Assembly: GCF_003987275.1 (NCBI RefSeq)
Contig: NZ_PIQF01000005.1
Span: 1 to 64,000 of the forward strand
Length of the DNA: 64,000 nt
DNA from: Idiomarina seosinensis
Lineage (GTDB): Bacteria > Pseudomonadota > Gammaproteobacteria > Enterobacterales > Alteromonadaceae
Direction: 5' to 3'
Shown piece by piece: positions 1 through 31,968 of the stretch (positions are counted from its first letter, which is position 1; every line of letters begins with the position of its first letter). The notes beneath the pieces are model-generated. The model searched no databases. It saw only the letters and a list, made by a program, of their open reading frames with translations, and had not been told where the DNA came from. The position numbers and the translations under genes are program-made.

Positions 1-110
1 GCCATAGCGGTATGGCACCACCTGGCTCCATCCCGAACCCAGTAGTGAAACATACCAGCGCCGATGGTAGTGTGGGGTCTCCCCATGTGAGAGTAGGACA
101 CCGCCAGACT
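1..110 (+). rRNA. rrf: 5S ribosomal RNA, 5' end cut off by the window
   Basis: The sequence matches the bacterial 5S rRNA pattern from about base 10 to the 3' end. It contains the CCGATGGTAGTGTGGGG and CCATGTGAGAGTAGG blocks and ends in CGCCAGACT, which would pair with the missing 5' end. About nine 5' bases lie outside the window. It is presumably the last gene of an rrn operon whose 16S and 23S genes lie upstream. A terminator follows about 10 bases later. Confidence 0.95.
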
Positions 111-29660: not shown

Positions 29661-29694
29661 AAGCGGGCCTGTGGAAGCAGGCCCGTTTTTTATT
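29661..29694 (+). terminator. Rho-independent terminator after the OmpA-family gene
   Basis: CGGGCCTG-TGGAAG-CAGGCCCG perfect 8-pair stem followed by TTTTTTATT. The ORF track start for trmB (29671) lies inside it and is therefore not the real start. Confidence 0.92.
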
Positions 29695-29727
29695 GTTCCG
29701 ACTATTCAACCTGGTGTTAACTATTTC

Positions 29728-30444
29728 ATGAGTCAGTTTAAAAGTGCTGAAGAAGCCGCCGCAGCGGGCAAGTATGTGCGTACCGTAAGAAGCTTTGTAA
29801 AAAGAGAAGGTCGCTTAACCAAAGGGCAGGCCGCAGCGATTGAGCGGCAGTGGCCAAAGATGGGCTTAAACCTGAACAATGGCTTGCTTGATTTTCAAAA
29901 AGTATTTGGCAATGACAATCCAGTAACTTTCGAAATTGGCTTTGGCATGGGCCATTCTTTAGTTGAAATGGCCGCTGCCGAACCAGCGCGTAACTTTATT
30001 GGAGTAGAAGTACACGAACCAGGAGTTGGCGCTTGCCTGATGGCAGCAGAGCAAGCTGGTGTTAATAACCTTCGGTTATACAATGACGACGCGGTCGAAG
30101 TGCTTAAACAATGTGTTGCCGATCAGTCACTGGATACGGTTCAAATTTTCTTCCCCGATCCATGGCATAAAAAGCGTCATCATAAGCGTCGTATTATTCA
30201 ACCAGAGTTCGTCCAGCAGTTGGTGCAGAAAATCCAGCTAGGTGGAACCCTGCATCTGGCCACCGACTGGGAAAACTACGCGGAACACATGCTCGAGGTG
30301 TTAAACAACACTCCTAACCTGGAAAATACCTCAACCACTAACGACTACGTACCACGCCCACAAAGTCGCCCCAGCACCAAGTTCGAACAACGTGGTGAAC
30401 GCAAAGGCCACGGCGTCTGGGACTTAGTATTCAAAGTCCGCTAA
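29728..30444 (+). CDS. trmB: tRNA (guanine-N7-)-methyltransferase TrmB
   Basis: SAM-dependent methyltransferase that makes m7G46 in the tRNA variable loop. Motifs: [14 protein letters not shown], the SAM loop [48 protein letters not shown] (the PDPWxKxRHxKRR family signature) and [14 protein letters not shown]. The ATG at 29728 gives 238 residues. It starts beyond the upstream terminator, and [11 protein letters not shown] is a typical family N-terminus. No strong Shine-Dalgarno is visible. In E. coli trmB is next to mutY-yggX; here the same genes are close but the orientation differs. Confidence 0.96.
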
Positions 30445-30480: not shown

Positions 30481-30655
30481 AGCCGAGTGGTGGTTCGAGA
30501 GAACGCTTCGGTCAGGCTTCGAGGCCTCTCATCCGGGAACCGCTGCAAGCACGTCCGTGTGGCTTGTTTCCGGCCATCCATGGCCTCCAACATTCCCGGA
30601 TGAGAGGCCTCAAATCCTAACGCGCGTTCTCTCGAACCACCACTCGAATCCGGCT
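30481..30655. repeat. Long nested palindrome, element A of a twin pair
   Basis: Outer perfect 22-base arms (30485-30506 and 30624-30645), a 14/12-base internal loop, inner perfect 19-base arms (30521-30539 and 30593-30611), and a 53-base apical region with two further small hairpins, including GGCCAT-CC-ATGGCC (30572-30585). AGCC/GGCT at the far ends can pair around a 6-base bulge. It starts 36 bases after the trmB stop. The apical region is homologous, inverted, to that of element B (30658-30804), while the arms are not. It has no coding capacity. I know no name for this family with certainty. Confidence 0.85.
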
Positions 30656-30657
30656 CA

Positions 30658-30804
30658 GTAGTAATAGCCTAGCGGCATAACACGGGTCCCCCAATCAGAG
30701 GGTGTCGAAGGCCAGGGATGGCCTGAGACAAGCGCACACGGACGTGCTCGTAGCGTCCCTCTGATTGGGGGACCCGTGTTATGCCAAAGCTAGGTTATTG
30801 CTAC
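30658..30804. repeat. Long palindrome, element B of a twin pair
   Basis: Perfect 29-base arms (30674-30702 and 30757-30785) extended beyond a 3-base AAA bulge by 16 more positions with 14 matches (30658-30673 and 30789-30804). The 54-base apical region contains AGGCCA-GGGA-TGGCCT (30709-30724) and GCAC-N6-GTGC (30734-30747). Reverse-complemented, it shares AGCACGTCCGTGTG, GCTTGT, GGCCATCC and TGGCCT in the same order with element A. It ends 6 bases before the hemW stop and so could end transcription from both sides, though there is no U-run. Confidence 0.87.
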
Positions 30805-30810
30805 CCACGC

Positions 30811-31968
30811 CTAAAGTAGTGTTTCGAGTACTGAGTTTAGGTAGCGGTGGCCGGTTGGGGTTAGTTGCCAGTGGCCGGGGGTTTCGGTTACCCAGCGCTG
30901 GGTTATGGCCTGTTGCAGTTTTAGCGAGGCTTGGCTTGCGGGTAGTCCGGTGGTTTGTTCGAAACGTTGTTTTGAGACAGGTTCTAATAGTCGTAATTGG
31001 TTCATGAAAAACTCAAAATAACGTTCTTCCGGAGTTATCTCGGTTAACTGATAGCGAAGCTCTCGGGTTAAATCTAAATAGCCCTGTGGGTGTTTGATCT
31101 TTTCACAGCGGATAATCCGATTGTCTTCCGCAACTGTCACTTTACTGTGTGCACCACAACCAATACCTAAGTAGTCACCGTATTGCCAATAATTGCGGTT
31201 ATGGCTGCTTTGATGGCCTGGCTTGGCGTAAGCACTGACTTCGTACTGTTGGTAGCCTGCTTGCTGCAATAACTCGTGGCCGGCCTGATAAATATCCCAG
31301 AGCGTATCGTCATCAGGTAACTCTGGCGGTTTACTGGCAAACGACGTGTTAGGCTCTATGGTTAATTGATACCAGGAAATATGTGGTGGCTGCAGTGCTA
31401 TTACTTGTTTCAGGTCATCTAACGCAGCTGCTAGCGTCTGATCCGGCAAACCATGCATCAAGTCCAGGTTAAAGCTATTTAGCGGCAGTTGGCTTGCGTG
31501 AGCGGCGGCGGCTCTTGCCTGGACCGGGTCGTGAATACGCCCCAGCGCGGTTAGCTGGTGTTGCTGTAAGCTTTGCACGCCGATAGATAAGCGGTTAATA
31601 CCGGCTTTTACAAAGTCGGCAAACTTTTCTGTCTCGAAAGTACCCGGGTTGGCTTCTAGCGTTACTTCGCAATCGGGGGCTAAGTGCACTCGCTGACGGA
31701 TACCGTCCATCAGACGCTGGATCGCATTGGCGGAGAAGACACTAGGTGTGCCTCCGCCAATGAATATGGAGTGAATCGAGCGCTGCTGAACCCACTCAAG
31801 ATCTGCGCTTAGATCGTCTAATAGGCGGCTTACGTACGCTTGTTCAGGAACGCTCCCTTTAAGCTTGTGCGAATTAAAGTCGCAGTAGGGGCATTTTTGT
31901 ATGCACCAAGGTATGTGCACATACAATGATAATTCGGGTAGTCGCAATGGTTCCTGATGCTGGCTCAT
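30811..31968 (-). CDS. hemW: Heme chaperone HemW (radical SAM, HemN-like)
   Basis: Radical SAM protein that binds heme and is thought to insert it into respiratory proteins; it was long annotated as oxygen-independent coproporphyrinogen oxidase. N-terminal SLYVHIPWCIQKCPYCDFNSH holds the CxxxCxxC cluster motif but lacks the extra cysteine of true HemN. FIGGGTPSVFSANAIQRLM, SIGVQSLQQHQLTALGRIHD, NLDLMHGLPDQT and the C-terminal winged helix follow. Length 385 fits HemW (378 in E. coli). It is coupled to rdgB by a one-base overlap, the same order as in E. coli. Confidence 0.93.
   Translation of the reverse strand: MSQHQEPLRLPELSLYVHIPWCIQKCPYCDFNSHKLKGSVPEQAYVSRLLDDLSADLEWVQQRSIHSIFIGGGTPSVFSANAIQRLMDGIRQRVHLAPDCEVTLEANPGTFETEKFADFVKAGINRLSIGVQSLQQHQLTALGRIHDPVQARAAAAHASQLPLNSFNLDLMHGLPDQTLAAALDDLKQVIALQPPHISWYQLTIEPNTSFASKPPELPDDDTLWDIYQAGHELLQQAGYQQYEVSAYAKPGHQSSHNRNYWQYGDYLGIGCGAHSKVTVAEDNRIIRCEKIKHPQGYLDLTRELRYQLTEITPEERYFEFFMNQLRLLEPVSKQRFEQTTGLPASQASLKLQQAITQRWVTETPGHWQLTPTGHRYLNSVLETLL

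Follow-up and report, generated by a model that had tools for sequence, protein, structure and literature searches.

A dispersed palindrome family of Gammaproteobacteria whose folded strand may present a two-site CsrA ligand

Introduction

Two adjacent long hairpins, A and B, lie between trmB and hemW in the window, the 64,000-nucleotide stretch of the Idiomarina seosinensis genome analysed here. The best explanation as a whole, which we favour with modest confidence, is that A and B belong, as two diverged copies, to a family of MITE-type long palindromes dispersed across Gammaproteobacteria. On the same footing, we regard the family as old, related to the Rfam motif TwoAYGGAY and mobile in at least one genome, that of Methylotuvimicrobium buryatense, and we propose that RNA of its GGA-containing strand would present a candidate two-site ligand for CsrA, with transcription, CsrA binding and any regulatory effect inferred. 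The explanation starts from a repeat family, its insertion polymorphism, the strand that folds, covariation, the loop consensus and mobility in one relative, all of which we observe.

Results

Two hairpins with homologous heads

The features of the site are listed below, with the strand given for whole elements, heads, loops and genes.

29671 to 30444, plus strand: trmB, convergent neighbour (TIGR00091)
30484 to 30646, folded (GGA) strand minus: hairpin A, whole element
30484 to 30506: A outer stem, left arm (23 of 23 pairs with 30624 to 30646)
30521 to 30539: A inner stem, left arm (19 perfect pairs under the head)
30540 to 30592, minus strand: A head, 53 nt, two mini-hairpins
30552 to 30559, minus strand: A loop 2 on the GGA strand, CACGGACG, fits CANGGANG
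30575 to 30582, minus strand: A loop 1 on the GGA strand, CATGGATG, fits CANGGANG
30593 to 30611: A inner stem, right arm
30624 to 30646: A outer stem, right arm
30657 to 30804, folded (GGA) strand plus: hairpin B, whole element
30674 to 30702: B stem, left arm (29 perfect pairs)
30703 to 30756, plus strand: B head, 54 nt, two mini-hairpins
30713 to 30720, plus strand: B loop 1, CAGGGATG, fits CANGGANG
30737 to 30744, plus strand: B loop 2, CACGGACG, fits CANGGANG
30757 to 30785: B stem, right arm
30811 to 31968, minus strand: hemW, convergent neighbour (TIGR00539)

An earlier note on this DNA had described two adjacent near-perfect long hairpins between convergent genes, with homologous heads in opposite orientation, and arm search, folding and alignment agree on each count. 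The arms of A pair over 23 nt at 100% (30484-30506/30624-30646), with a longer arm pair of 29 nt at 90% (30511-30539/30593-30621, 26 of 29 pairs), and those of B pair over 29 nt at 100% (30674-30702/30757-30785). Against 200 dinucleotide shuffles, fold energies reach z about -12 (-12.0 for A; -11.3 and -12.6 for the strands of B). A and B are 148-163 nt long, and their heads can be aligned over the full 53/54 nt with A read on the plus and B on the minus strand. That the stems are unrelated is true of A against B; the A stem, however, shares positions with A-type copies of sister species, and stems are thus specific to subfamilies and contain hypervariable paired segments, without being unrelated in all copies. 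At the window's edge lies a 5S rRNA gene (RF00001; window 1-109).

A family spread over dozens of genera

The window's genome contains the exact core three times, and a covariance model built from five copies recovers eight copies there. Covariance-model searches find the family in 14 of the 19 genomes of the genus, with 8-32 copies each, and detect no copy in the other five congeners, so the element is dispensable. Across 220 copies the anatomy is constant: a perfect inner stem of about 20 bp, an irregular asymmetric zone, and an outer stem of about 20-25 bp. Core matches within the genus have paired flanks and their stems are not identical in all copies, which sets them apart from an ordinary dispersed repeat; the stems of a subfamily are related, yet hypervariable segments change on both arms together. 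These observations support the proposal of a repeat that doubles as a structured nucleic acid, its head constant and its stem variable but self-complementary.

Beyond the genus, a degenerate exact head pattern has matches in Stenotrophomonas, Xanthomonas, Rheinheimera, Microbulbifer, Marinobacter, Shewanella, Methylotuvimicrobium and other Gammaproteobacteria. Paired arms surround 91 of 127 such wider heads, the remainder being degenerate or not resolved by the ungapped arm test; the head is mostly 52 nt, and stems are unrelated between genera. A model from 66 diverse copies places the family in 71 of 369 sampled gammaproteobacterial genomes and 64 of 272 genera, the positive genomes often having at least 12 candidates each. 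There is one match among 2.9 million viral contigs, and blastn returned no plasmid or phage copies.

Insertion polymorphism and mobility

Between trmB and hemW, one congener carries a single A-type hairpin and the others have no long hairpin of this kind; because the site is empty in most congeners, it is polymorphic for insertion. Similarly, at the orthologous gene ends of acnB, ispB and mdh the hairpin type differs by species or a hairpin is missing. Mobility is plainest in M. buryatense, where near-identical copies, 148-299 bp long, have CAGCAATTCCCARTTTG inverted repeats at their ends and 9-bp duplications on either side (e.g. TGGTGACTG, TAGTTATGT, AATTCTAAT, GCTTTATTG and CCGTAGCCG); that genome holds about 318 such inverted-repeat ends and none of a control pattern. 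At loci L341-L358 of M. buryatense, other short palindromes are nested in the first mini-hairpin, giving the 148-299 bp range with the second hairpin and the stem intact. Ends and duplications of this kind mark an ordinary inverted-repeat element, so the structure-recognising insertion enzyme invoked by the earlier note is unneeded. Copies in the window's genome are old, with no readable target duplication; at the window site the congeners are too diverged to resolve one.

The elements resemble MITEs in being short, non-coding and multi-copy with long inverted repeats, and in M. buryatense also in their many near-identical copies, terminal inverted repeats and 9-bp duplications; in the window's own genus the long arms and the copy number (8-32) match. 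They differ in that the genus copies are mostly old, have differing stems and lack a recognised target duplication, and in that the head is common to unrelated stem families. Capture, or rapid divergence with compensation, may have put one head on so many unrelated stems. With the REP/BIME elements of RAYT systems they share a palindromic structure, a position downstream of genes and inverted pairs (PMC3733652). REPs, however, are 20-40 nt long with a GTAG/CGTC-tagged foot, whereas our elements measure about 150-165 nt and are conserved in the head; as size and anatomy differ and the conservation profile contains no such foot, we rejected RAYT-type and CGTC-tagged REPs (PMC3733652).

Further arrangements were seen around hairpins. 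One congener (G014, L138-L145) has about a dozen near-identical larger mosaic repeats that contain hairpins and have AATTCTTTACTGCGGC inverted ends, one copy occupying the acnB site, at which the hairpins of congeners are of other types. Downstream of acnB in another genome (G015, L183), the hairpin is interrupted by a different palindrome, CCTGACATTCATGTCAGGTGGGATATCTCACCTGACGTAAACGTCAGG, parts of which also stand beside hairpins in neighbouring species, and at L001 an extra 17-bp perfect palindrome, CCTAGGGCCTTGCGTC...GACGCAAGGCCCTAGG, adjoins one element copy on its right side. We considered an autonomous element inside pairs spaced 0.9-1.1 kb apart, but the enclosed ORFs look like a small toxin-antitoxin pair rather than a transposase. 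In several congeners one two-gene unit (110 aa plus 86-90 aa; L072:6107-6709 and L075:17910-18524), toxin-antitoxin-like by eye, is apparently inserted between the hairpins that occupy the acnB/DUF885-like convergent site. At acnB the right arm seemed to have copied host 3' ends, but this was confined to one orthologue group and is not general.

Covariation and wobble bias identify the folded strand

In our alignment of copies (A3), every outer-helix pair has changed on both sides. Double-changed cells number 659, where shuffles give 243, and slid partners reach a covariation score of at most 0.285, compared with 0.752 for the paired positions; the arms therefore covary strongly, the check that the earlier note had called for. 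All four Watson-Crick types occur at stem positions within one subfamily.

The mismatches in turn reveal which strand folds. Among 69 non-redundant copies, the first 18 pairs below the head hold 38 A.C and 4 G.T mismatches (p=6e-8) when read on the strand described in the earlier note, and copies from other genera replicate this bias (35 A.C against 9 G.T, p=1e-4). An A.C on that strand is a G.U wobble on the opposite one, so the molecule kept folded is the GGA-containing strand, opposite to the one first described. The GGA strand also has the stabler fold in 57/69 and 50/69 elements, and one head pair is always G.U or G-C and never A-U (66/66 sequences). G.T wobble is tolerated in single-stranded DNA as well, and the wobble test alone thus does not separate RNA from single-stranded DNA; the conserved object is most likely RNA of the GGA-loop strand (minus in A, plus in B).

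Mismatches in the outer stem have no strand bias (83:80), and a different process may maintain its pairing, be it inverted-repeat ends, shared descent or template switching. The hairpin-templated repair suggested earlier is thus possible for the outer stem, and it is unneeded for the inner stem, because strand-specific wobble and the loop signature point there to selection on the folded strand.

The head loops fit the CsrA consensus

The second hairpin on the GGA strand reads [A/T/C]-C-A-N-G-G-A-N-G-[T/A/G]; all distinct heads (140/140) have the same C, A and GGA, and both N positions are free. Two CANGGANG motifs lie 14-18 nt apart in 129 of 145 distinct heads, as compared with 0.02 motifs per shuffled head, and close CANGGANG pairs occur within the 64-kb window only at A and B. 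The loops are AUGGAU and ACGGAC in A, and AGGGAU and ACGGAC in B, within a family consensus of ANGGAN.

The published RsmA/RsmE consensus is A/U-CANGGANG-U/A (PMC4353343), and in RsmE structures ANGGAN forms a hexaloop, with a CsrA dimer bridging sites 10-63 nt apart (PMC7652899). The GGA hexaloop hairpins of the family fit this consensus, as expected of CsrA-binding sRNAs, and their 14-18 nt spacing could, by analogy, be bridged by one CsrA/RsmA dimer. Both loops of A fit AYGGAY, and one of the two in B does, its first loop being AGGGAU.

Relation to known structured RNAs

The nearest described motif is TwoAYGGAY (RF01731, clan CL00106), found computationally, with gammaproteobacterial members (PMC2864571), and proposed on motif grounds to bind CsrA (PMC4333381). 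Its model scores 26.2 bits on the minus strand of A and 37.6 bits on a relative (L045), against a gathering threshold of 43, and does not match B; the aligned region takes in the two hairpins with GGA, the AAG that links them and the outer stem. Both A and B have the long external stem enclosing two hairpins by which TwoAYGGAY is recognised, and the likeness extends to poor conservation of that stem, GGA in both hairpin loops, an intervening AAG and a GCGUC that follows, all on the same strand. The difference is that TwoAYGGAY has been presented as a candidate RNA, which Rfam annotates as cis-regulatory, and not as a dispersed mobile repeat with a hypervariable stem. The elements are probably homologous to TwoAYGGAY, judging by these shared features; because the score is below gathering, we file them as a variant and not as members. 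The earlier description of the system as undescribed holds only in part, since the GGA strand resembles RF01731.

Repeated ANGGAN hairpin loops and a plausible titration of CsrA are shared with the CsrB/CsrC/RsmX/Y/Z sRNAs, from which the element differs in having two sites in each copy, in occurring as many dispersed copies, in its long stem and in lacking a visible promoter or terminator. The CsrB model (RF00018) exceeds its cut-off in 0/19 genus genomes; the clearest CsrB-like match in the genus (L315, G012) scores 31.7 bits, below cut-off, in a genome with no detected element. Matches to Rfam microRNAs were dismissed as chance matches to a long hairpin.

Genomic context

All 150 genus sites with both neighbours called are convergent (84) or tandem (66), none being divergent; a broader set, annotated with a crude ORF caller, gave 17 convergent, 42 tandem and 7 divergent sites. 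Multi-copy sites in the genus have the order (+,-) in all but three cases, an order in which read-through from each gene meets the non-GGA face first. Among tandem single copies, the GGA strand is antisense in 30, against 13. The head follows the orientation of the upstream gene in 184 of 220 copies, a trend that we set aside as trivial, because any hairpin at a convergent site has a same-strand upstream gene and the tandem single copies split 30:13. Clustering had suggested an integron-like cassette array, but these clusters consist of core housekeeping genes whose convergent ends carry the hairpins.

The suggestion that the site is a terminator was not borne out: there is no U-tract, no terminator-like site at A or B and no enrichment in the flanks. 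We saw no promoter-like site around A and B either, and the flank conservation profile of the elements yields no conserved promoter or U-tract, nor any promoter or terminator logo. With no promoter or terminator visible, expression of the GGA strand is presumed, and it is the weakest step of the explanation.

Discussion

We propose that, whenever the neighbouring genes or the element itself are transcribed through the GGA strand, the head would capture putative CsrA. The head would offer two short hairpins, each with an ANGGAN hexaloop, to one CsrA/RsmA dimer, and the long stem, free to vary as long as it stays paired, would present and protect it. Many copies together could form a dispersed CsrA sink, the eight copies here offering at most 16 sites, and could tether neighbouring transcripts to CsrA at their 3' ends. 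Such a sponge or tether function is the best-supported hypothesis. Speaking against the explanation are the lack of promoter- or terminator-like sites, the more frequent antisense position of the GGA strand at tandem sites, the (+,-) order, the unbiased outer stem, the first loop of B, the five congeners in which no copy was detected and the fact that single-stranded DNA also tolerates G.T wobble. A bolder form, plausible but rather doubtful, is distributed titration: each insertion would add a two-site ligand to a gene's 3' region, and copy number would set CsrA buffering and mark CsrA-held transcripts, doing the work of CsrB-type sRNAs.

The strand-specific fold might instead be needed as single-stranded DNA, for transposase recognition or replication-coupled insertion, in which case the GGA loops would be enzyme contacts and CsrA irrelevant. 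The element is indeed mobile in at least one genome and insertion-polymorphic, its pairs stand in a fixed order, and, as single-stranded DNA also tolerates G.T wobble, the strand bias by itself need not mean RNA. The mobility that is visible, however, with inverted-repeat ends and 9-bp duplications, is what a DDE transposase acting on double-stranded ends would leave; REP tags (GTAG/CGTC) and the 20-40 nt REP size do not fit, and eight positions of the loop consensus agree with CsrA, N being free exactly where CsrA allows. We consider this reading unlikely. Slightly less probable still is that the elements serve as 3'-end insulators or mRNA stabilisers, long post-stop hairpins that block exonucleases or convergent read-through beneath a passive cap. 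The 0/150 divergent sites, beside 84 convergent and 66 tandem, and the different hairpin types at orthologous 3' ends across species are in keeping with such a role, but avoidance of promoters is equally expected of any tolerated insertion, no terminator feature was found, and a cap would require neither a strand-specific fold nor loops in which A and GGA never vary and N is free.

An improbable account is a mutational process only, in which template switching keeps the arms complementary and the functionless head is conserved as a hinge. It would accommodate the hypervariable paired segments and an outer stem that stays paired while lacking strand bias (83:80), but leaves unexplained the inner-stem bias as well as the compensated head mini-hairpins and the loop signature across 64 genera.

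We therefore return to the mobile palindrome with a candidate CsrA ligand. TwoAYGGAY has been an RNA motif of unknown function since 2010, with only a motif-based CsrA hypothesis. To this we add the folded strand, identified from covariation and wobble bias, the exact fit of the loops to the CsrA consensus, and a TwoAYGGAY-related family that is scattered over dozens of genera and has in places moved recently. Should the RNA prove to be expressed and bound, a global regulator would be drawing its sponge sites from transposable elements, and the variation in copy number between species would make this idea directly testable.
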